DNA of 64,000 nt from Arthrobacter sp. zg-Y769 (GTDB taxonomy: Bacteria; Actinomycetota; Actinomycetes; Actinomycetales; Micrococcaceae): positions 248,001 through 312,000 of the forward strand of contig NZ_JAJJOE010000003.1 of the NCBI RefSeq assembly GCF_020907405.1, in the 5' to 3' direction. Positions 10,414-19,280 of the stretch are shown piece after piece. The translations under genes and the position numbers were made by a program. The number at the start of each line of letters is the position of its first letter. The first letter of the stretch is position 1. Below the pieces are notes generated by a model, which saw only the letters and a program-made list of their open reading frames with translations, searched no databases and was not told the DNA's origin.

Positions 10414-11409
10414 CTAGGCCCGCCGGCGCTGCAGGACGTCGTCGAGGTTGATCTTGCCGGTCTCCGGACGCTCCTGCTGCGCGGGCACAGCCGGTGCGGC
10501 GGCGGGACGCAGCGGCGTGTTGGCGACGGACCGCGGGGCTTCGAGGGCTATCGGCTCGGGTGCCGGACGCTCCGCCTTGGGCGCGTCAACGTACACCGGC
10601 TTGGGCAGTTCCACGGGCTGCCACGGGGTGGTGCTGGGCCGGGGCGGCGGCTGGACGGCTGCTGCTGCCACGTTCAGGGCCTCGGTGCGAAGCTCGTCAA
10701 CGGGGGCCCGGGCCGGGACCGCGCCGGCGACGGCTACGCTTTGGTCCGGCACGGCAGCTGACTCGCGGTCGAACAGGACCGTTTCGGGCTGCGGCTCGGC
10801 GTCCGGCGCTTCCGGGGCCGGAGCCTCTTCGGGCAGCGCTGCAGCGGTCCGGTCCGAAACGTAACGTGGTTCCGGTCCCATAGCTGCACGGAACGCCTTT
10901 TCCACCCGGAGCCTGCGGTCCCGCACCGCGAGCGAGCGGAGCATCGCCACCACTGCGGCTATGGCCGCCAGGCCGGCGGCAGGGAGAAGCCAGGACACGG
11001 AGGTGAAGGCCGCAAGAACCGTGCCGACAACCACGGCCAGGATGGCAAGGACGCCGGTGGCGGCCAGGGCCGTACGGCCGGTGCGGATATGGAACGCAGG
11101 AGCCGGCTGCACGGGACGCACGGCTGGCTGCCCCTGGCTATGGACCTGCATTGACCCGCCCCCGCTGGGCGTATTGCTGATGTTGTTCATAATGATCCCC
11201 TGGGACCCCTTGTCGGGTGAGGCGGGCGGGCGGATGGTGTTGGCGGCAAGACTGCGTGCGGCAGGTTGTGCTGCTGTTTGTGCTGCTGGTTGTGCTGCTG
11301 TCTGCGCCGCGGAAGTAGCTGGACGTCTAAGGAAATACGGACCCACCCACACCAGCCATAGTGCAACGGCAAGTGCCAGCACCAATGAGCTGTTTAGAGG
11401 GAAGTCCAC
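10414..11409 (-). CDS. Conserved actinobacterial membrane protein (Rv0996-like position)
   Basis: A 331-residue protein of unknown function. Residues 8-29 form an N-terminal helix (LVLALAVALWLVWVGPYFLR). A low-complexity Ala/Gln/Pro run follows, encoded by imperfect repeats near 11265-11310. A pair of helices lies near residues 130-180 (TGVLAILAVVVGTVLAAF and WLLPAAGLAAIAAVVAML). The remaining ~150 residues are Pro/Ala/Glu-rich and probably disordered in the cytoplasm. It sits next to rimJ and galU, the position taken by the conserved transmembrane protein Rv0996 in M. tuberculosis as I recall, which supports a real, conserved gene. No catalytic motif seen. Confidence 0.75.
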   Translation of the reverse strand: MDFPLNSSLVLALAVALWLVWVGPYFLRRPATSAAQTAAQPAAQTAAQPAARSLAANTIRPPASPDKGSQGIIMNNISNTPSGGGSMQVHSQGQPAVRPVQPAPAFHIRTGRTALAATGVLAILAVVVGTVLAAFTSVSWLLPAAGLAAIAAVVAMLRSLAVRDRRLRVEKAFRAAMGPEPRYVSDRTAAALPEEAPAPEAPDAEPQPETVLFDRESAAVPDQSVAVAGAVPARAPVDELRTEALNVAAAAVQPPPRPSTTPWQPVELPKPVYVDAPKAERPAPEPIALEAPRSVANTPLRPAAAPAVPAQQERPETGKINLDDVLQRRRA

Positions 11410-11490
11410 ACTTACGACGGTAGAAGCTCGGGGCCACCGGCAGGCGCATTACGTTCGGTGTGTCGGCGTGTCGCGTGGGAAAATTGTCAA

Positions 11491-12105
11491 CTAGCGTTCC
11501 CGGCGGGACTTCCATCGGTTCAACAGCCCCTCCGGCACCTCCTCGGCGGTGAGTGCAAAGCTTCGATGGTCGGCCCATTCGCCGTCGATGTGCAGGTAAC
11601 GCTCCCGCATGCCCTCGTCCCGGAAACCCAGCTTTTCGACTACCCGGAGACTCGGACCGTTCTCCGGCCTGATGTTGATTTCCATCCGGTGCAGGGCGAG
11701 GGCCTGGAAACAATGGTCCGTTGCCAGCGCCACAGCCGTCGGCACAATACCCCGGCCTGCCCTCCCCTGGTCCACCCAGTATCCGAGGGTCGCCATCCGG
11801 GCTGATCCCCAGACGATGGTGGAAACCGTCAGCTGCCCCACGATCGCCGGCGGCCGTGCAGGATCCTGCCGCTCCGTGATGAGGAACGGCAGGGCGGAGT
11901 CCTGGCGTGCCTGGCGGTTAAGGCTTCGCACCATGTCGCCGAAGGTTGGAGGCTCGCCGCCGGGCACCGGATTGCTGGCCTCCCAGGGACCCACCCAGCG
12001 GGCGTTGCGGGACCGGACGTCGGTCCATTCCCGCCGGTCCCGGTGCCGGATCGGCCGGAGAATGACGTCGTCGCTCTCCAGCGTCACCGGCCATGAAACC
12101 GACAT
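11491..12105 (-). CDS. rimJ: GNAT N-acetyltransferase, RimJ type
   Basis: A 204-residue GNAT protein beginning MSVSWPVTLESDDVILRPIR. The acetyl-CoA-binding loop region GYWVDQGRAGRGIVPTAVAL (Q/R-x-x-G-x-G/A pattern) and ENGPSLRVVEKLGFRDEGMRERYLHIDGEWADH are characteristic of the RimJ/RimL clade that acetylates protein N-termini or amino-sugar groups. The name reflects position after galU (as in M. tuberculosis Rv0995) as well as similarity; the target is not determined. The ATG at 12105 is preferred; a TTG two codons upstream directly follows the galU stop, so the two are tightly linked and probably co-transcribed. Confidence 0.82.
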   Translation of the reverse strand: MSVSWPVTLESDDVILRPIRHRDRREWTDVRSRNARWVGPWEASNPVPGGEPPTFGDMVRSLNRQARQDSALPFLITERQDPARPPAIVGQLTVSTIVWGSARMATLGYWVDQGRAGRGIVPTAVALATDHCFQALALHRMEINIRPENGPSLRVVEKLGFRDEGMRERYLHIDGEWADHRSFALTAEEVPEGLLNRWKSRRER

Positions 12106-12111
12106 GGGCAA

Positions 12112-13017
12112 TTAGTCTTCGAGGGTGCTGGTGAAATCCTTCAGCCAGTCCCGCAGGGCCGGGCCGAGGTCTTCGCGTTCGGAGGCCAGGGAAACCACTG
12201 CCTTGAGGTAGCTCAGCTTGTCGCCGGTGTCATAGCGGCGGCCGCGGAAGATCACGCCGTAGACCCCTGAGCCTTCGCCTTCGGCGGCCGCCAGCGTCTG
12301 GAGCGCGTCGGTGAGCTGGATCTCGCCGCCCCTGCCCGGACCGGTTTCTTCGAGGACACCGAAGACCGAGGGATGCAGGACATAGCGGCCGATCACGGCC
12401 AGGTTCGAAGGCGCGTCATCGACGTCGGGCTTCTCCACGAGCTTGTTGACGCGGACGTAATCCTCGCCCTCGACCACGGAGATATCCGCACAGCCGTAGG
12501 CACTGATCTGCTCCGGATCCACCTCGATCAGGGCAATAACGGATCCGCCCGTCTTGGCCTGGACTTCCACCATCGTTTCCAGCAGCTCATCGCGGGCGTC
12601 AATCAGGTCATCGCCAAGCAGGACCGCGAAGGGCTCGTCGCCGATATGCAGCTTTGCCCGCAGCACGGCGTGGCCAAGCCCCTTCGGATCGCCCTGGCGA
12701 AGGTAGTGGATTTCGCCGAGCTCCGATGCCGCCCGCACCAACGCGAGCTTGTCGAGATCGCCCTTGTCTTCCAGCGTTTTCTCGATGAAGGGAACACGGT
12801 CGAAGTGATCCTCCAGGGAGCGCTTGTTCCGCCCCGTGATCATAAGAATGTCCGGCATGCCTGCGTTTACGGCTTCTTCAACCACGTACTGAATGGCGGG
12901 CTTATCCACCACGGGAAGCATTTCCTTCGGCATGGCCTTGGTGGCGGGGAGGAAGCGTGTACCCAGACCGGCGGCGGGAATTACGGCTTTGGTTATGGAG
13001 GGGCGTGACGTCGTCAT
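12112..13017 (-). CDS. galU: UTP-glucose-1-phosphate uridylyltransferase
   Basis: A 301-residue nucleotidyltransferase. KAVIPAAGLGTRFLPATKA followed by MPKEMLPVVDKPAIQYVVEE is the GalU signature for UTP binding; LGHAVLRAKLHIGDEPFAVLLGDD is the substrate-binding/metal region, and VNKLVEKP carries the conserved lysine near residue 190. The enzyme makes UDP-glucose for cell-envelope polysaccharides, glycogen/trehalose metabolism and UDP-galactose. Length is normal. The ATG at 13017 has no SD; instead TACGCT lies seven bases upstream (13025-13030), so the transcript is probably leaderless. It is divergent from the 5-formyl-THF cyclo-ligase gene, 67 bases apart. Confidence 0.95.
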   Translation of the reverse strand: MTTSRPSITKAVIPAAGLGTRFLPATKAMPKEMLPVVDKPAIQYVVEEAVNAGMPDILMITGRNKRSLEDHFDRVPFIEKTLEDKGDLDKLALVRAASELGEIHYLRQGDPKGLGHAVLRAKLHIGDEPFAVLLGDDLIDARDELLETMVEVQAKTGGSVIALIEVDPEQISAYGCADISVVEGEDYVRVNKLVEKPDVDDAPSNLAVIGRYVLHPSVFGVLEETGPGRGGEIQLTDALQTLAAAEGEGSGVYGVIFRGRRYDTGDKLSYLKAVVSLASEREDLGPALRDWLKDFTSTLED

Positions 13018-13024
13018 AGTCGTA

Positions 13025-13030
13025 AGCGTA
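13025..13030 (-). promoter_or_regulatory. -10 box of galU, leaderless geometry
   Basis: TACGCT on the minus strand ends seven bases before the galU ATG, the same hexamer and spacing as before glmS. No Shine-Dalgarno is present. Confidence 0.65.
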
Positions 13031-13084
13031 CCTAAGAGGTCTCTGATTGCACCAAATATGCAGCCTTATGGGGACAATGGGCGT

Positions 13085-13687
13085 ATGCACACGCTGAAAA
13101 AGGACCAGGCCCGAAAGGATTTCCAGCAATTCCGCCGGGAAATGACGGACGTTGAAAGATCCCGGGCCGCCCAGGGGCTGGCCGGCGTCGGGCTGCGCGG
13201 CATTTCGGAACTGGTACCCCGGGGTGGAACCGTTGCCGGTTACCTCGCCGTCGGCACGGAACCCGGTACGGGTGCGTTGCTCCAGGGTCTGTTCCGCTCC
13301 GGTTACCGTGTGGTCCTGCCGGTGTGCGAACCCGAACGGCGCCTGTCATGGTGCTACTGGACCCCCGAAACAGAACTGGCGCCCGGGCTGCACGATTCAC
13401 TGCTGGAACCCGTTGGTGAGCGCTATGCGGCAGCCGATCTTCCCGGACTCGACCTCGTGCTCGTACCCGCACTGGCCGCTGACTCCGCAGGCGGACGGAT
13501 TGGCAAAGGCGGCGGCTACTATGACCGGTTCCTGGCCGCGCTGCGGGCGGACGGCAACCCGGCGCCGGCTGTCGCGGTGGTTTACGGGCACGAATTCGTT
13601 CCGGCGGGCAGCTTCGAAACCACTCCCCTGGACGCACCCGTGGACGCGGTGCTGACCCCTTCCGACTGGCGGCAGGTGCCGTCGTAG
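13085..13687 (+). CDS. 5-formyltetrahydrofolate cyclo-ligase
   Basis: A 200-residue protein of the 5-FTHF cyclo-ligase (MTHFS) family. Key motifs are the N-terminal KKDQARKDFQQFRREM (basic ATP/folate region), a central YLAVGTEPGTGALLQGLF, and GGRIGKGGGYYDRFLAAL near residue 140, the phosphate-binding G-x-GKGGGYYDR signature. It converts 5-formyl-THF to 5,10-methenyl-THF using ATP, recycling an inhibitory folate. The ATG at 13085 places the first motif at the N-terminus; upstream in-frame sequence overlaps galU antisense and lacks similarity. The Ruc-like zinc-ribbon gene follows, as in M. tuberculosis (Rv0992c-Rv0991c). Confidence 0.92.
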   Translation: MHTLKKDQARKDFQQFRREMTDVERSRAAQGLAGVGLRGISELVPRGGTVAGYLAVGTEPGTGALLQGLFRSGYRVVLPVCEPERRLSWCYWTPETELAPGLHDSLLEPVGERYAAADLPGLDLVLVPALAADSAGGRIGKGGGYYDRFLAALRADGNPAPAVAVVYGHEFVPAGSFETTPLDAPVDAVLTPSDWRQVPS

Positions 13688-13693
13688 CCGTTG

Positions 13694-13699
13694 TATACT
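13694..13699 (+). promoter_or_regulatory. -10 box upstream of the zinc-ribbon gene
   Basis: TATACT lies just after the cyclo-ligase stop. Its last base is the first base of the CIRCE operator, so a bound repressor would cover the promoter. No good -35 box was found at the usual distance. Confidence 0.6.
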
Positions 13700-13725
13700 T
13701 AGCACTCAAGGCTTGAGAGTGCCAA
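13699..13725 (+). promoter_or_regulatory. CIRCE element (HrcA operator) upstream of Ruc-like gene
   Basis: TTAGCACTC, nine bases, GAGTGCCAA. The left arm is a perfect CIRCE half and the right differs from GAGTGCTAA by one base; the spacer is exactly nine. It matches the two CIRCE copies before groES in this window and overlaps the TATACT box, so HrcA should repress this promoter outside heat shock. Confidence 0.88.
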
Positions 13726-13783
13726 AAGTTGATGTGCCGGGGCCCGAGGGTGCCAGGGTTTGAATGCCAGGAGGATTACCAGA

Positions 13784-14080
13784 GTGCCAACGTATGCCTA
13801 CGCCTGCAAGGATTGCTCCCATTCGTTCGATATCCAGCAGTCCTTCAGTGAAGACTCCCTGACGGTCTGCCCCGAGTGCGGCGGCCGTCTGCGTAAGAAG
13901 TTCAACAGCGTCGGCGTCGTATTCAAGGGTTCCGGTTTCTACCGCACCGATTCACGCGACGCCGCCTCCACGGTTCCGGCAGCTCCGGCCAAGGCTGACG
14001 GTGCGGCACCGTCCGCGCCCGCAGCATCCGGCAGCGGAACCCCTGCAGCTGCCGCACCCGCCGGCGGCTCCCAGTCCTAA
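13784..14080 (+). CDS. FmdB-type zinc-ribbon protein, Ruc (Rv0991c)-like chaperone
   Basis: A 98-residue protein starting at GTG 13784, nine bases after a strong AGGAGG. Cys8, Cys11, Cys29 and Cys32 (two C-x2-C pairs) form a zinc ribbon of the FmdB family. It is followed by a conserved core FNSVGVVFKGSGFYRTDSR and an Ala/Pro/Ser/Gly tail of about 40 residues that looks disordered. M. tuberculosis Rv0991c (Ruc) has the same layout and is, to my knowledge, a redox-regulated chaperone controlled by HrcA. Here a CIRCE site lies directly upstream, which supports a stress-chaperone role; the disordered tail is Ala/Pro- rather than Ser-rich. Confidence 0.88.
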   Translation: MPTYAYACKDCSHSFDIQQSFSEDSLTVCPECGGRLRKKFNSVGVVFKGSGFYRTDSRDAASTVPAAPAKADGAAPSAPAASGSGTPAAAAPAGGSQS

Positions 14081-14279
14081 ATCCTGCCGCAGGGATTGCT
14101 TCCCGGGTACTGTAATTGCCCGGGCGCGCCTCGGGTCCGGCCTCGCCGGCCCGGGTTGGCCACGCGCCACGCGCCCACTTCGCCTCCACATTGGCCATAC
14201 GGCCCGGGACTCTTCCCGTTTGCCGGAGGTGCCGGCGGCTGACCGCTGCCGACGGGGTTTCCACGGCTAGCGTGACGGC

Positions 14280-15020
14280 ATGCGTTTTCACCGTTTGTCC
14301 GCCAGCGAGTCCGCCGGCACCTCTGCCTATCCGGGTCAGCCGCCGGTCTCCCTGTACTCCGGCTCGAGAGTCCGCCGCTTTATGGTCCGCCACCGGCGCC
14401 TGCTGGCAGCCCTGGCCTGCTGCGCTGCTGCGGGTACCGCGGTTGAGGCGCTGGGACCGGAAACTTCGGACCACGCCGTCATGGTCCGGGCCGCCCGTGA
14501 TTTGCCCGCCGGGACGGTCCTGGCCGCGGGGACACTGGAAACGGTGGATGTTCCGGTTGAGGCCGTCCCCCCCGGCGCCCATAAACAGCCGGAGGCACTG
14601 GTCGGCCGACGCCTCGCCACTCCCCTGCTGCGGGGCAGCCCTGTTACGGATGTTTCCCTGGCCGGCGCCGGACTCCTGGCGGGCGCCCCGCCGGGTTCCG
14701 TGGCAGTGCCCCTGCGCCCGGCGGATCCTTCCGTTCTCGACCTGCTGGGGCCCGGGCAACTGGTCAACGTTGTTGCCGCAACGGGGTGGGAGAACCCGGG
14801 TGCGGGACATGCGGCCGGTGACGTCAGCGGTGCCGTTGTCCTGGCCGCCAGGGTACCGGTGCTGTGGGTGTCCGGGGGGAAGTCCGGGGGCGGCTGGCCG
14901 GGCAGCGGCAGCGGCGACGGCGACGGGCTGGTGGTCGTGGCTGCGGACCGGGAGAACGCGGCCCGCCTGACGGCTGCTTCCGGGTCCGGCAGGATCTATC
15001 TCGTCCTGACAGACGGGTAG
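14280..15020 (+). CDS. SAF-domain protein (CpaB/RcpC-like)
   Basis: A 246-residue protein. A polar/basic N-terminus (MRFHRLSASESAG to VRRFMVRHRR) is followed by a helix LLAALACCAAAGTAVEAL near residues 40-58, then a SAF domain: VMVRAARDLPAGTVLAAGTL with EALVGRRLATPLLRGSPVTD. SAF domains occur in CpaB/RcpC pilus-assembly proteins and in flagellar P-ring chaperones. No other pilus gene lies nearby, so a pilus role is only possible. The C-terminus is Gly/Ser-rich (near residue 205) then VVVAADRENAARLTA. It lies 200 bases after the zinc-ribbon gene with no clear promoter between. Confidence 0.78.
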   Translation: MRFHRLSASESAGTSAYPGQPPVSLYSGSRVRRFMVRHRRLLAALACCAAAGTAVEALGPETSDHAVMVRAARDLPAGTVLAAGTLETVDVPVEAVPPGAHKQPEALVGRRLATPLLRGSPVTDVSLAGAGLLAGAPPGSVAVPLRPADPSVLDLLGPGQLVNVVAATGWENPGAGHAAGDVSGAVVLAARVPVLWVSGGKSGGGWPGSGSGDGDGLVVVAADRENAARLTAASGSGRIYLVLTDG

Positions 15021-15038
15021 GGTGCTTCCCGCCGGCGT

Positions 15039-15323
15039 TTATCCCCAGTGCGGCGGGCGCTGCTCCCGGAGCCAGGAATCGGTGTCCTCCGGGCTGTCGC
15101 CCCACGCGCGGGGATCGTCCTCTTTGGCGGTCACGGGCAAAAGGCCCGCCTGCCCGCCCGCTCCGGATGAAACCGCCCGGCGGTTGCCGCGCCTGCGGCC
15201 GCCGCGCGGGGCGCCGGCCGGGGTGCCCTGCTCCGGGGCGCCGGCCGGGGTGCCCTGCTCCGGGGCGCCGGCCGCAGCGGCTTCCTCCGCCGCGGCCTTC
15301 CCGGTGACGGGTTCCTCAGTCAT
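15039..15323 (-). CDS. Small conserved hypothetical protein, partner of the helicase-like gene
   Basis: A 94-residue hydrophilic protein. The N-terminal half is Ala/Pro/Gly/Gln-rich with two 9-residue repeats; a basic patch RGGRRRGNRR follows, and the C-terminus is an acidic/aromatic motif (EDDPRAWGDSPEDTDSW, ending REQRPPHWG) that I recall in other actinobacterial small proteins of unknown function. The ATG at 15323 is preceded by AGGAG, and only three bases separate it from the stop of the large upstream helicase-like gene, so the two are co-transcribed and may form a complex. No catalytic motif is visible. Confidence 0.7.
   Translation of the reverse strand: MTEEPVTGKAAAEEAAAAGAPEQGTPAGAPEQGTPAGAPRGGRRRGNRRAVSSGAGGQAGLLPVTAKEDDPRAWGDSPEDTDSWLREQRPPHWG
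15208..15273. repeat. Two and a half 27-bp tandem repeats in the small partner gene
   Basis: Identical 27-base units at 15208-15234 and 15235-15261 and a partial copy to 15273. They encode the 9-residue unit APEQGTPAG in the small protein. The perfect identity suggests recent duplication or conversion. Confidence 0.85.
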
Positions 15324-15326
15324 CAC

Positions 15327-18300
15327 TCACTCTCCTGAGGCGCTGTCCGGAACGGATTCCGCCCTCCGTTCGCGCATCCGGCTGCTTCCGTGCGGGGTCA
15401 CTTTCGCCTGCTGGGCAGGACGGGCAGCTTTGTCCGCGCCGGGCTCGGCGGAGTCCGCAGTGCGTGGGACGGGCTGCTGACCGACGGGGGGATCCGGCAG
15501 CTCGAGGTATCGGCTCACGAGATCCGCGCAGGCGGACGGGTCGCTGAAGACCTCGATGGTCCACAGCGGCATGTAGCGCCAGCCGCGGCGTTCAAGCAGC
15601 TGCGGCCGGAGCCGGCTCCGTTCCCGGACGGACATGGCGCGGTAGCGTTCGGTGCCGTCCGATTCGATGGCCAGCGGCGCCGGCGTGCCCGTCGGGCCCG
15701 CCGAATGGGGAGCCGCGGCGACAATATCGATGGTGCCGTCGTAGTGGTCCCAGACCTTGGCCCCGCGCTCACGCAGGCGGCCCACCAGATCCGCCACCAG
15801 CGGATCCTCGTCCATGATGCCTCCGGCAGCGGGGAGTTCCTCGCGGCCGGTTTCCGGATCGAGCTCCCGCTTGATGAGCTCGTAGAAGTCCAGGGCACCG
15901 TAGCCCAGCCGCGTCCGGTCGAGGTCTGCCGGCTGGAAGCAGGTCAGCACGTGCTGTTTGTACCGTGCCCGGGTCATGGCCGTGACGAACTTCTTACGGC
16001 CGTCAGGTGCTGACAGCGGGCCGAAGTTGTGCAGGGCACGCCCGTGCGGGGTACGTCCGAAGCCGAGGGAGAAGATCACGCAGTCCCGCACCATGCCAAC
16101 GGCACGGTCCACCGGAACCACCCGGAAGGACTCGGTCTTCGCCGTGAAGAAATCGGCGGCCCACGGGAAGTTGGCCATCTGCACACGGATTGCTTCAGCT
16201 ACCCGCACGGCGTGGCGCGGGCTGGCGGTGATGACGCCGAGGGACTGGTGCGGACGGCGCCGGATGTGTTCGAAGACCAGGTCAACCACGCGGTTGACCT
16301 CCGCTGCAACACTTTCCACGCCTTCGTGGTCGGCACTGGGCATGCCGGTCCCGTCGGGCAGGTATTCCACGGAGAGGGCGCGGTGTCCGGTGGTGACTTC
16401 GTCGGCGCTCGGAACCATGGAGAGGCGGCCGCCGTAGAACGAGTCGCTCAGCTGCCGCAGCAGTGCCTTGTCGGTGCCGCGGTAAACCGTGGAGAGGCAG
16501 CGAGTGGGCAGGACACGTTCCAGCGCTTCGAAGGCACTGACCAGTTCGACGTGCTGGGGCGCCGTACCTGCGGGTTCAACACCGATCGTGAACGGCCGCG
16601 GTCCGCCCAGGCAGCTGTCACCGAAGGCAATCACCTGCGAGGCGCGGGCCAGTGCCGGAACAGCGGACTGCAGGCTGGTGGACTCGGCGTCGAGCAGTAC
16701 CACGGTGTCGAAGCGGCGGTGTTCGGGCAGGACCATCGGCAGCACGAGGGGGCTGGCAGCCCACACCGGCAGCAGGGACGAAACGAGTTCCTCGGACTGC
16801 TGGCTCAGGCTCTCCAGGGACAGCTCGCCGTCCTTGAGCAGCTCGCGCAGGTCCTCGGCAGCACCCCTTGCGGCCTGGACACCCGAGTGCCAGCGCGAAG
16901 CAAGGCTCCAGCGCAGGCGGGCGGCGCCCGAGGCAATGTGCGCGTTGTCCGCCAGCCGGTACTCCGCCTCCAGCCGGCGCAGGCTGTTGCCGTCGGACAT
17001 GGCAAGGTAGTCGTCACCGCTGATCATGGCTTCCAGGGCGGACTGCCACCATGCCAGTTCCAGCTCGTAACCCACGTGGCGGGGCTGCACCTCACGGGCA
17101 CTCAGGTCATCCAGAAGTTCACCCAGGCCCTGGGCGCGCATCTCGTCGAGCAGCAAGGTCCGTTCGGGCAGTGTTTCCAGGGTTTCGCGGTCTCCCGCCA
17201 GCTGGCTGAGCTGCTTCTCGAGTTCATCGAGCTGCAGGGAGGCCAGGTCCGGGTGGAGCGGTGTCTCGGAGAGGATGCCGGTCAGGGTGTCCAGCTGCCG
17301 CTTCACCAGCAGGTAGGAGCGGTTGATCTCGGCCAGGCCGGTGGGCACCGAGGGGTGCCGCTGGGTGGTGGCGTAGCGGGTCCAGACGGCACGCTGCTGC
17401 TGGACTTCGGCCAGCGAAGCGTGCAGGTCCGAAATGTGCACGCCGGGCCGGACATACTCCTTGGCCACGCGCCGCAGGCGGGAACGGGTCATGGAGCTCA
17501 TGTCGATGCCGCGCTCGCGCCGCCAGGAGGAAGAAGCCGTCGCCGAGATCAGGTCCGTCACCGGGCGGTCGAAAATGTCCGGGGTGAACTTGTCCAGGCT
17601 TTCCCGCACGGCAACCAGCAGTTCCAGCTGTTCGCCCCACTGGGCAAATGTTTCGCCGAGACGGATTTCGGAGTGTTCGGCCACGTCCTGGACCTTGGCC
17701 CGCAGGGCAGGCAGGTCCGCTGCAAGGGTCTGGGTCAGCGCATACGCTTCTTCCGTTTCCTTGCGGTTGAGCAGCTTGGCGCCGTACCACGGGCTGGTGG
17801 TTGCCGCCCGGCTGAAGCTGCCGAGTTCGGCGGCCCGGCGCAGGCGGCCGGAAAGTTCAGTGCGGTCGGTAATGCTGTCCAGGACGCTCCGCTTGAGCCG
17901 GACGGTGGTGGCCGGCGCCGGGTTCATGGAGGTCAGCTCGGCGAGCGACTGCATGGCCTGGTAGGGCGAGCAGCCCCAGCGGCGGCGGACGTTGTGCAGC
18001 GACTTCACGTGGTCGCGGAGCTGGTGGCGGTTTTCGAGCAAGACCTTGTGCAGGCTCTGCAGCTCAGGGGCCTGCGACTTTTCGTTGCGGACAATCGCGC
18101 GGACCAGCTGGTCCTTCAGCTGCTGCTGCGTGAGCCCGGCGTTGGCCTGCAGGACCAGGGAGCCCAGCTGCATCGCGTCCAGCTCGGAGACGAACTGGTT
18201 CAGGGTGCTTCGGCGTTCGGCCACCACCAGGACGGACTTGCCGGCATTGGCCAGCGCCGCGACGGCGTTCAGCGCGGTCTGGGTCTGGCCCGTACCGGCC

Positions 18301-19172
18301 GGCGCGGAGACTACCAGCGACTGGCCCGCGTTGACCAGGTCCAGGACTTCCTGCTGCTGCCGGTCGGCGTCGAGGATGAGGAGTTCATCCGCGGGGTCCC
18401 GCTCGTCCAGTGCCGGCAGATCCAGCGGTTCCGGAAGCGCCGGACCGGCGGAGCCGTCACGGGCGGCGTCGATCAGGGCGCGAAGGATCGGGTGGGCCGG
18501 ATCCAGCGCCGGGTCCTCGCCGAGGTCGGACAGGTCGGCGAAGGTGGAAACCAGCAGGCGGTGTTCAATGTTGATCCCGCGGACGCTGCCGGTGACGGCC
18601 CGGAGCTTTTCGAGCACCGGATGGGGATCAAAGCGGGCAGTGCCGTAGGCCAGGCGGGTGAGGGCGTCGACGTCGAGGTCCAGGCCCTGCTCGTGCTGCA
18701 GGTGGCGGACCAGGGCGGGGTTCAGTGCCGCCTTTTCGGTCAGCTGCAGTTCGTAGTCATCCTGCGAGGCGTGGACCGTCAGCGCCACCGGGGTGAGCAG
18801 CACGGGTGCGGTCAGGGACTCCGGCCGCAGCGCCTCATCCGAGGCGTAGCGCCAGGACGCCGTGCCGGCGGCCATGTAGCCGACGTCGATGCCCCGGTCG
18901 GTGCCCAGTTCGTAGATCTTGGCGCGCAGCAGGCGCCCTGCCTTCATGGCGGCACCGTACTGGTCGGGATCGCGCAGCAGGGTCGACAGGCGGGTACGGC
19001 GGCCGGCCAGCAGCTGGGCCAGGCCGGAGGGATGCGCGTGGGTCAGGTCGATGCTGTTCGCGGCGGACGGCGTGAAATGGAGCAATGTGTCCGTTCCGGC
19101 GTGCTGTCCCAATTGTCCCAGCCACGGCAGCAGGAAGTCCGAGGGATTCTCCCCGGTATTCTGCTCAGACAC
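15327..19172 (-). CDS. Large SF1-helicase-like protein with C-terminal endonuclease-like domain
   Basis: A 1281-residue protein starting at GTG 19172 after an AGAGGG-type SD. The N-terminal ~250 residues have features of DUF4011-type regions. Where an SF1 P-loop is expected there is APAGTGQTQTALN (residue ~296, Gln for the catalytic Lys). A coiled middle region follows. Motif II reads VVLLDAESTS near 824 (D-A-E-S instead of D-E-A-S), and motif V reads PVDRAVGMVRD (expected Q and E lost), while the motif VI-like TAMTRAR is kept. The C-terminal ~110 residues match MTES_1575-type nuclease domains: TIDIVAA, AIESDGTERY, RSRLRPQLLERRGWRYM and IEVFSDP, with Asp and Glu retained. It is likely a DNA-binding nuclease with a crippled ATPase; role unknown. 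Confidence 0.8.
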   Translation of the reverse strand: MSEQNTGENPSDFLLPWLGQLGQHAGTDTLLHFTPSAANSIDLTHAHPSGLAQLLAGRRTRLSTLLRDPDQYGAAMKAGRLLRAKIYELGTDRGIDVGYMAAGTASWRYASDEALRPESLTAPVLLTPVALTVHASQDDYELQLTEKAALNPALVRHLQHEQGLDLDVDALTRLAYGTARFDPHPVLEKLRAVTGSVRGINIEHRLLVSTFADLSDLGEDPALDPAHPILRALIDAARDGSAGPALPEPLDLPALDERDPADELLILDADRQQQEVLDLVNAGQSLVVSAPAGTGQTQTALNAVAALANAGKSVLVVAERRSTLNQFVSELDAMQLGSLVLQANAGLTQQQLKDQLVRAIVRNEKSQAPELQSLHKVLLENRHQLRDHVKSLHNVRRRWGCSPYQAMQSLAELTSMNPAPATTVRLKRSVLDSITDRTELSGRLRRAAELGSFSRAATTSPWYGAKLLNRKETEEAYALTQTLAADLPALRAKVQDVAEHSEIRLGETFAQWGEQLELLVAVRESLDKFTPDIFDRPVTDLISATASSSWRRERGIDMSSMTRSRLRRVAKEYVRPGVHISDLHASLAEVQQQRAVWTRYATTQRHPSVPTGLAEINRSYLLVKRQLDTLTGILSETPLHPDLASLQLDELEKQLSQLAGDRETLETLPERTLLLDEMRAQGLGELLDDLSAREVQPRHVGYELELAWWQSALEAMISGDDYLAMSDGNSLRRLEAEYRLADNAHIASGAARLRWSLASRWHSGVQAARGAAEDLRELLKDGELSLESLSQQSEELVSSLLPVWAASPLVLPMVLPEHRRFDTVVLLDAESTSLQSAVPALARASQVIAFGDSCLGGPRPFTIGVEPAGTAPQHVELVSAFEALERVLPTRCLSTVYRGTDKALLRQLSDSFYGGRLSMVPSADEVTTGHRALSVEYLPDGTGMPSADHEGVESVAAEVNRVVDLVFEHIRRRPHQSLGVITASPRHAVRVAEAIRVQMANFPWAADFFTAKTESFRVVPVDRAVGMVRDCVIFSLGFGRTPHGRALHNFGPLSAPDGRKKFVTAMTRARYKQHVLTCFQPADLDRTRLGYGALDFYELIKRELDPETGREELPAAGGIMDEDPLVADLVGRLRERGAKVWDHYDGTIDIVAAAPHSAGPTGTPAPLAIESDGTERYRAMSVRERSRLRPQLLERRGWRYMPLWTIEVFSDPSACADLVSRYLELPDPPVGQQPVPRTADSAEPGADKAARPAQQAKVTPHGSSRMRERRAESVPDSASGE

Positions 19173-19280
19173 TAGTGCCCTCTTTTCTGCACTTCCGCGC
19201 GTTCTCGACCAAATTGGCATACCTTCCAAACTATCGCGTCGGGGCGGGTTTCCCGAACATAGCAACGCGGGGGACGAAAA

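Follow-up and report, generated by a model that had tools for sequence, protein, structure and literature searches.

An order-wide pseudohelicase of Actinomycetales as a candidate non-catalytic scaffold

Here, we describe a gene on the reverse strand of a 64,000-nucleotide stretch of the Arthrobacter sp. zg-Y769 genome (hereafter the window, meaning the whole stretch of DNA analysed). Its product is a superfamily 1 (SF1) helicase-like protein with a Vsr-like nuclease-type domain, and it is a vertically inherited core protein of its order. Since the residues that burn ATP are lost yet the protein is kept in nearly every sampled genome of the order, it probably has a structural job rather than one in nucleic-acid unwinding. 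We give about even odds (a probability of roughly 0.5) to the reading, drawn from sequence comparison and structural modelling, that it descends from the Hhe/ProA/PDC-S37 lineage as a helicase-nuclease whose enzymatic role was retired and which persists as a non-catalytic scaffold.

Motif loss, constraint and descent

Aligned with intact orthologues, whose GPPGTGKSQ, FDEAS, GDxxQLPP and VQGDERD motifs served as the reference, the window protein carries the substitutions K327Q, D858L and E859D and has lost the motif III Gln (column 886) as well as the motif V Gln and Glu (1056 and 1059); R929, GD at 882-883, RD at 1060-1061 and TRAR are unchanged. A preliminary description of the window had listed a Walker A Lys replaced by Gln in GTGQTQ, a motif II without Asp-Glu, a motif V without Gln and Glu and a retained TRAR in motif VI, and each of these readings stands.

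A homologue was present in all 149 sampled genomes of the window's family (E <= 0.001), from which 148 orthologues were fetched and aligned, G073 being excluded for its weak match (E 3e-6). Position 327 was never Lys, holding Gln in 116 orthologues, Ala in 12, Gly in 5, Arg in 4 and other residues in 11; position 858 was never Asp, holding Leu in 143 and Ile in 5; and position 859 held Asp in 134 and Glu in 14. Structural residues were retained (Gly324 in 148, Gly882 and Asp883 in 147 each, Arg929 in 144, Asp1061 and Arg1101 in 147 each), and the loop after the lost Lys was largely kept (Thr328 in 128, Gln329 in 125).

Moreover, the gene is under purifying selection. The ratio of nonsynonymous to synonymous substitution rates (omega) was 0.043, 0.058, 0.079, 0.166 and 0.164 in the five comparisons counted with the window gene (L292, L293, L005, L007 and L008; L294 is the same genome as L007), and 0.039-0.150 in five further close pairs. 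For guaA, used as a control, the values at the same five loci were 0.018, 0.031, 0.032, 0.078 and 0.066, so the constraint on the pseudohelicase is somewhat weaker. With Lys327 and Asp858 each absent from all 148 orthologues and omega at 0.043-0.166, the earlier proposal of a selected pseudohelicase rather than random decay is borne out, and the opposite picture, an isolated decayed copy among intact close homologues, does not fit a family in which 0 of 148 members are intact.

Across the order, a homologue was found in 247 of 248 genomes (completeness 95% or more), covering 83 of 83 genera and 17 families. The sister family f4, sampled at one genome per genus, had it in 60 of 60 genomes, including those of 0.9-1.5 Mb, and sister family f3 in 184 of 186. 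In a phylum-wide sample, 64 of 396 genomes matched, 53 of them outside the order; the outside matches include the six sequences supplied as outgroup, and many of the others are partial, weak or long Hhe-like.

For 13 of the 17 families (all but f77, f80, f82 and f87), motif states were taken from an alignment of 155 rows, of which 149 come from the order and six from the outgroup; the window's own family contributes every fourth row (37 of 148), and loci repeating a genome were removed. Lys327 is present in 40 of the 155 rows, namely all six outgroup rows, both rows of f78 and 32 of the 38 from f3, and in none of the 109 rows of the remaining eleven families, hereafter the degenerate rows. Among these 109, Glu859 occurs in 4 (family f1) and the motif V Gln in 8, five of them from f79; the P-loop is beyond recognition in most rows of f81, f84, f76 and f88. 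One f3 locus (L291) has kept the Lys, yet its motifs II and V are altered. Asp883 is present in every row.

With the motif columns removed, the gene tree follows the family assignments almost exactly (14 changes across 14 groups, the minimum being 13), which argues for vertical descent. Because intact orthologues are seen only in f3, f78 and the outgroup, the direction of change is from intact to degenerate. On 53-row trees the Lys state needs five changes, at least four of them forced by well-supported branches under a quick model; the mixture-model tree likewise gives five (bootstrap range 5 to 5), at least three of them forced. Furthermore, placing the Lys-less rows in a single clade is rejected (p 0.0046 with 33 rows, 0.0081 without L416; quick tree, LG+G4). 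As the outgroup is intact, the changes are most simply read as a single loss in the common ancestor of the eleven families, three more inside f3 and another outside the order, in f104; this count is approximate because some rows are long branches. The f104 locus, L416, has Arg in place of Lys and Glu-Asp in place of Asp-Glu. Loss of catalytic motifs by descent from an active-looking ancestor is a feature that the protein shares with pseudohelicases, along with a predicted helicase fold and purifying selection.

The window falls within Arthrobacter in the broad sense, its closest named relatives being Arthrobacter sp. zg-Y844 (98%) and A. zhaoxinii (97%). A Micrococcaceae-type copy of the gene also occurs in three records whose titles name Vibrio cholerae 35D, Sporosarcina beigongshangi REN13 and an Acidobacteria metagenome-assembled genome (L370, L360 and L311), most likely through contamination or misnaming.

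Coupled tail peptide and predicted fold

The preliminary description had pointed to a coupled small gene, and the family loci bear the coupling out through a conserved C-terminal tail: among the 148 own-family loci, the tail is fused to the pseudohelicase open reading frame (ORF) in 59 and encoded by a separate ORF in 80, with 7 loci lacking a match and 2 having too short a flank. It was found near a stop codon downstream at 139 of the 146 loci with enough flank, the controls at these loci giving 0 finds on the opposite strand, 0 upstream in sense and 7 upstream in antisense; a looser last letter of the pattern raised the own-family finds to 142. All 142 carry the first Pro and the His, positions at which the pattern also allowed Ala and Tyr, and 131 carry the Trp; the second Pro was forced by the pattern. 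In 24 of the 80 separate ORFs, translation can start in an ATGA or GTGA overlap with the helicase stop, and in relatives the separate ORF usually lies in another frame. The consensus consists of an acidic stretch, W-G-D/E, and then W/R-L-x-x-E/Q-R-P-P-H-W at the C-terminus, and no Pfam or NCBIfam model matched the tails tested. A search of the window's own genome with a single DNA pattern (PPHW, one residue and a stop-like codon), which other tail forms would escape, returned three matches and no second tail protein, the one match with a stop being this gene.

Elsewhere in the order, tails were found in f3 (4 fused, 9 separate, 25 with too short a flank), f4 (2 fused, 15 separate, 14 none, 1 short flank), f84 (5 of 7, fused), f86 (1 fused, 3 separate), f78 (2 separate), f79 (3 of 6, separate), f76 (2 of 4), f81 (1 of 8) and f83 (1 of 6), and the motif was not found in f88 (0 of 3), f85 (0 of 1) or the outgroup (0 of 6). 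In a class-wide sample of 197 genomes, 50 of the 56 with a match (E <= 0.01) belong to other orders, the total being rough in both directions (the search misses known tails of G372 and G787). Of 26 outside-order loci read, 24 have a small ORF ending in the motif, and at 15 the 1.5-kb flank contains a SAF- or FmdB-type gene; among 20 wider neighbourhoods, 13 include such a gene. The frequent neighbours are presumably SAF-, FmdB- and MscL-type genes. The C-terminal part of a helicase homologue lies upstream of the tail at L389 and L395. At L416, a degenerate homologue (10665-15692, reverse strand; a 1676-codon ORF with the P-loop Lys changed to Arg) lies near the tail gene, and the gene between them is presumably CBS-domain-like. 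As an observation in its own right, loci L380-L407 and L408-L427 mark an unnamed small actinomycete protein family ending in ...W-G-D/E...L-x-E-R-P-P-H-W.

The AlphaFold prediction, a check that the preliminary description had proposed, has a UPF1/Dna2-like fold, indicating that the helicase fold is retained. Pfam profiles identified a partial DUF4011 (PF13195, 29.2 bits against a cut-off of 22.2, covering only profile positions 90-158 of 158), and helicase profiles match the window protein weakly. Residues 399-532 also gave weak Dps/ferritin matches, which in our judgement probably reflect no more than a likeness between helices.

Candidate functions

We propose that the protein joins a DUF4011-like N-terminus and a Vsr-type nuclease domain to an SF1B helicase fold of the UPF1/Dna2 kind. 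Most simply, its ATPase would have been retired a single time in the common ancestor of the eleven sampled families, with separate losses in a few other lineages, and several of the ATPase-less lineages would later have lost the nuclease as well. The present-day protein would hydrolyse no ATP and serve instead as a scaffold that binds nucleic acid, most likely DNA, and takes part in genome maintenance. A rigid clamp would be built from the long helical arm together with both RecA-like lobes, and the acidic WLxEQRPPHW tail, fused or supplied by the coupled ORF, would dock it to a partner. The protein would thereby act without a motor of its own, like RecC and AddB or Deinococcus PriA. More tentatively, and with distinctly lower confidence, the history could be one of domestication, in which a defence-type helicase-nuclease lost its motor repeatedly and its nuclease in places to become a core scaffold, docked by the unnamed actinomycete peptide to a class-wide partner; such a partner may exist across the class because the peptide is still encoded by small ORFs beyond the order.

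From the 40 intact to the 109 degenerate rows, conservation falls in the motif windows (320-359, 0.88 to 0.55; 840-879, 0.82 to 0.51; 1040-1079, 0.84 to 0.61; 1200-1239, 0.77 to 0.51) and is nearly unchanged in the middle arm (440-479, 0.58 to 0.53; 560-599, 0.60 to 0.57; 720-759, 0.65 to 0.60), a contrast that is only relative because the degenerate rows outnumber the intact ones and are more diverse, and because blocks without motifs drop too (40-79, 0.83 to 0.44; 240-279, 0.71 to 0.39; 800-839, 0.74 to 0.45). This is one of several points that weigh against the scaffold reading. The Walker B Asp column holds Asp in 26 of the 109 degenerate rows (f76, f81, f84, f86 and f88), and residues 1251-1312 are weakly constrained (omega 0.18-0.41). 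The tail was not found at 7 of 148 family, 14 of 32 f4, 7 of 8 f81, 5 of 6 f83, 3 of 3 f88 and 6 of 6 outgroup loci, and a helicase homologue was not seen in 19 of the 20 wider tail neighbourhoods outside the order, L416 alone having one. Tail and helicase are therefore separable, each occurring without the other at many loci, and fusion of their ORFs does not prove joint function. In addition, nucleic-acid binding is predicted from the fold, the partner is hypothetical, and the GTGQTQ-like P-loop found in most of the family could permit residual nucleotide binding.

The version favoured in the preliminary description, in which a pseudohelicase clamp binds DNA and delivers to it a Vsr-type nuclease that is still active, strikes us as doubtful, though it fares best among the competing explanations. 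The acidic catalytic set of the MTES_1575 nuclease, D, E, D (D1180, E1201 and D1203), is complete in the window protein and in 8 of 8 members of its genus, and judging from these residues the nuclease may still cut in Arthrobacter. Every scored row has D1203 (153 of 153) and W1229 (154 of 154), and omega in the nuclease region is 0.012-0.205. Within the family, however, Asp1180 is found in 139 of the 148 orthologues, Glu1201 in 64, Asp1203 in 147 and all three in 63; D1180 is missing from all 32 rows of f4 (27 of these keep E1201), and both D1180 and E1201 from all 22 rows of f76, f81, f84 and f88 together. Because these sister families keep the protein without such residues, the nuclease cannot be its universally retained function, and an intact nuclease as the general function was rejected. 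The claim of an intact nuclease domain thus holds, at the level of these residues, for the window protein and its genus and fails for most of the family, and that of a scaffold carrying a nuclease is not supported as worded. The PF18741 score lies near the gathering cut-off of 38.2 bits (38.2, marked as over, in one search and 32.8 in another), and the domain modelled alone is poor (pLDDT 62.2, the predicted local distance difference test score). The structural comparison barely covers this part, so that the lack of nuclease matches there is uninformative. The same genome contains two more MTES_1575-like stretches (G000:C12:15017-15259 and C14:145254-145394; L002 and L003), which sit in smaller ORFs and score below the cut-off.

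We consider it unlikely that the protein serves in anti-phage defence, as Hhe, ProA and PDC-S37 do, without its ATPase. Its best library matches are to this group: PDC-S37 (PDLC05009) at 362.8 bits in PADLOC, whose output shows no cut-off, ProA (NF058533) at 326.7 bits and Hhe (NF042953) at 144.9 bits. Intact orthologues score higher with PDC-S37 (837 and 820 bits), and the lineage is already known as a defence-type family with a named nuclease domain. However, the ProA and Hhe scores lie far below the curated NCBIfam cut-offs for membership (1500 and 2000), the working SF1 ATPase motifs expected of such proteins are not present (Lys327 and Asp858, 0 of 148), and both catalytic centres are changed in several families. 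Furthermore, the gene is near-universal, descends vertically family by family and often occupies one site, whereas defence genes are usually patchy and mobile. Because the libraries score the lineage as PDC-S37/ProA/Hhe, automated surveys of defence genes may list a core gene under immunity. According to the accessible part of PMC10250203, a DUF4011 gene is a core flank of a P. aeruginosa defence hotspot; the accessible part of PMC10482375 mentions neither Hhe, PDC nor helicase. Among the matches listed in our literature search, with subscription papers largely outside it, there was no description of an order-wide pseudohelicase or of the tail.

An RNA-binding scaffold in ribosome assembly or RNA quality control appears no likelier than a defence role: the nearest solved folds include the RNA helicases IGHMBP2, UPF1, Sen1 and Aquarius, and Utp25 offers a precedent (accessible part of PMC9539457), but Dna2 fits the fold equally well, and the relatives possess a Vsr-type nuclease domain and have ties to phage defence. 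We regard as improbable a non-hydrolysing switch that binds ATP or GTP for a shape change without cleaving it; Thr328 (128 of 148), Gln329 (125), R929 (144) and R1101 (147) would suit such a switch, but the Lys and the Mg-binding Asp are absent from all 148 orthologues, and the loop is unrecognisable in most rows of f81, f84, f76 and f88. Finally, a decaying gene or an assembly error, to which the in-frame TGA parting body from conserved tail in the window might point, is hardly credible, random decay and frame error being rejected on the family-wide absence of Lys327 and Asp858 (0 of 148) and on omega values far below 1, and separate tail ORFs being common (80 of 148) and usually in another frame.

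Kept in nearly all sampled genomes of the order, even those below 1 Mb, although its motor and, in some lineages, its nuclease centre were discarded, the protein is a strong case of a selected pseudoenzyme. Sister families offer both intact and degenerate orthologues for comparison, and the conserved tail peptide provides a direct handle for pulling out a putative partner.

Locus features and comparison with known systems

Table 1. Features of the pseudohelicase locus, in window positions
Feature	Position	Strand	Remarks
Pseudohelicase gene	15327..19172	-	1281 aa from GTG at 19172; ORF open up to 19265
Degenerate Walker A / motif I, SAPAGTGQTQ	18279..18308	-	Residues 320-329; Gln327 codon 18285-18287
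Degenerate Walker B / motif II, FDTVVLLDAEST	16677..16712	-	Residues 852-863; L858-D859 against D-E in intact orthologues
Degenerate motif III	16587..16640	-	Residues 876-893; Gly882-Asp883 retained, Gln gone
Degenerate motif V, DRAVGMVRDC	16080..16109	-	Residues 1053-1062; Gln1056 and Glu1059 positions altered, Arg1060-Asp1061 retained
Motif VI, TAMTRARYK, retained	15957..15983	-	Residues 1095-1103
Helical middle arm	16731..18068	-	Residues 400-845; conservation of 440-799 falls little in degenerate lineages
MTES_1575 (Vsr-like) nuclease-type domain	15516..15788	-	Residues 1160-1250; D1180, E1201, D1203
Small downstream ORF, 95 aa	15039..15326	-	In frame directly after the pseudohelicase TGA; GTG then ATG possible starts
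Conserved C-terminal tail of small ORF, EDDPRAWGDSPEDTDSWLREQRPPHWG	15042..15122	-	Acidic, ...WLxEQRPPHW
Convergent neighbours downstream	12893..15020	+	Context conserved in many families
guaA	19320..20945	-	Upstream of the pseudohelicase, same strand; label from sequence and the preliminary description

The pseudohelicase ORF is uninterrupted over 15327-19265, where a TTG start would give 1312 aa. A very long ORF of 1048 aa runs antisense to it (16029-19175, forward strand), and the longest ORF is antisense in five relatives' loci too (L024, L025, L032, L039 and L041), probably an effect of high GC content; orthologous ORFs were picked by similarity.

The convergent neighbours are presumably MTHFS, an FmdB-type zinc ribbon and a SAF-domain protein. 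FmdB-/MTHFS-type genes lie convergently downstream at 135 of 148 own-family loci (at 10 of the 13 exceptions the flank is below 2 kb) and 26 of 32 f4 loci. FmdB-/MTHFS- or SAF-type genes also occur at part of the f3 (30 of 38 flanks below 2 kb), f78, f79, f81, f84, f76, f85 and f86 loci, and loci with convergent genes include the intact-Lys copies L039, L239, L248, L250 and L252; none were seen in f83 (0 of 6), f88 (0 of 3) or the outgroup (0 of 6, short flanks). In contrast, guaA is directly upstream at 140 of 148 own-family loci and at 0 of 25 f4 and 0 of 33 f3 loci (the last two counts include three duplicate loci). A conserved site beside guaA had been described earlier; the site is indeed conserved in many families, but its position next to guaA is specific to the window's family among the loci examined, and guaA was rejected as a meaningful neighbour.

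PDC-S37, ProA and Hhe are defence proteins with a DUF4011 - SF1 helicase - Vsr nuclease architecture, and the window protein shares clear homology with them over the helicase and nuclease parts. It differs from them in its length (about 1300 aa against model lengths of 1550-1911), in falling under the NCBIfam cut-offs, in its lost catalytic residues and in its near-universal presence in the order. RecC and AddB are helicase- or nuclease-like folds without a motor that serve as scaffolds within the RecBCD and AddAB complexes; the likeness would lie in the motorless scaffold, and the difference in their belonging to those complexes. The window's own genome contains three PF12705 matches. Two of these (G000:C8:170079-174265; L372 and L374) are separated by about 3 kb, lie in ORFs of 1101 and 1156 aa and are presumably AdnA/AdnB-like. 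Because of these three matches, the pseudohelicase is not a substitute for something absent, and simple replacement of AdnAB was rejected.

IGHMBP2, UPF1 and Dna2, all SF1B, are active motors, whereas the ATP-site residues are gone from the window protein. The MTES_1575 Vsr nuclease domain (PF18741), named in the accessible part of PMC3710099, is the probable family of the C-terminal domain described here, although Glu1201 is present in only 64 of 148 members of the window's family. Deinococcus PriA, which without ATPase activity keeps DNA binding and its contact with DnaB (accessible part of PMC4504706), and yeast Utp25, a pseudohelicase in ribosomal RNA processing (accessible part of PMC9539457), likewise keep a helicase fold or domain whose chemistry is lost or dispensable while the protein is retained. 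Unlike these two, which belong to other helicase families, the window lineage combines its degenerate helicase with a nuclease domain and a tail peptide and has undergone repeated losses.

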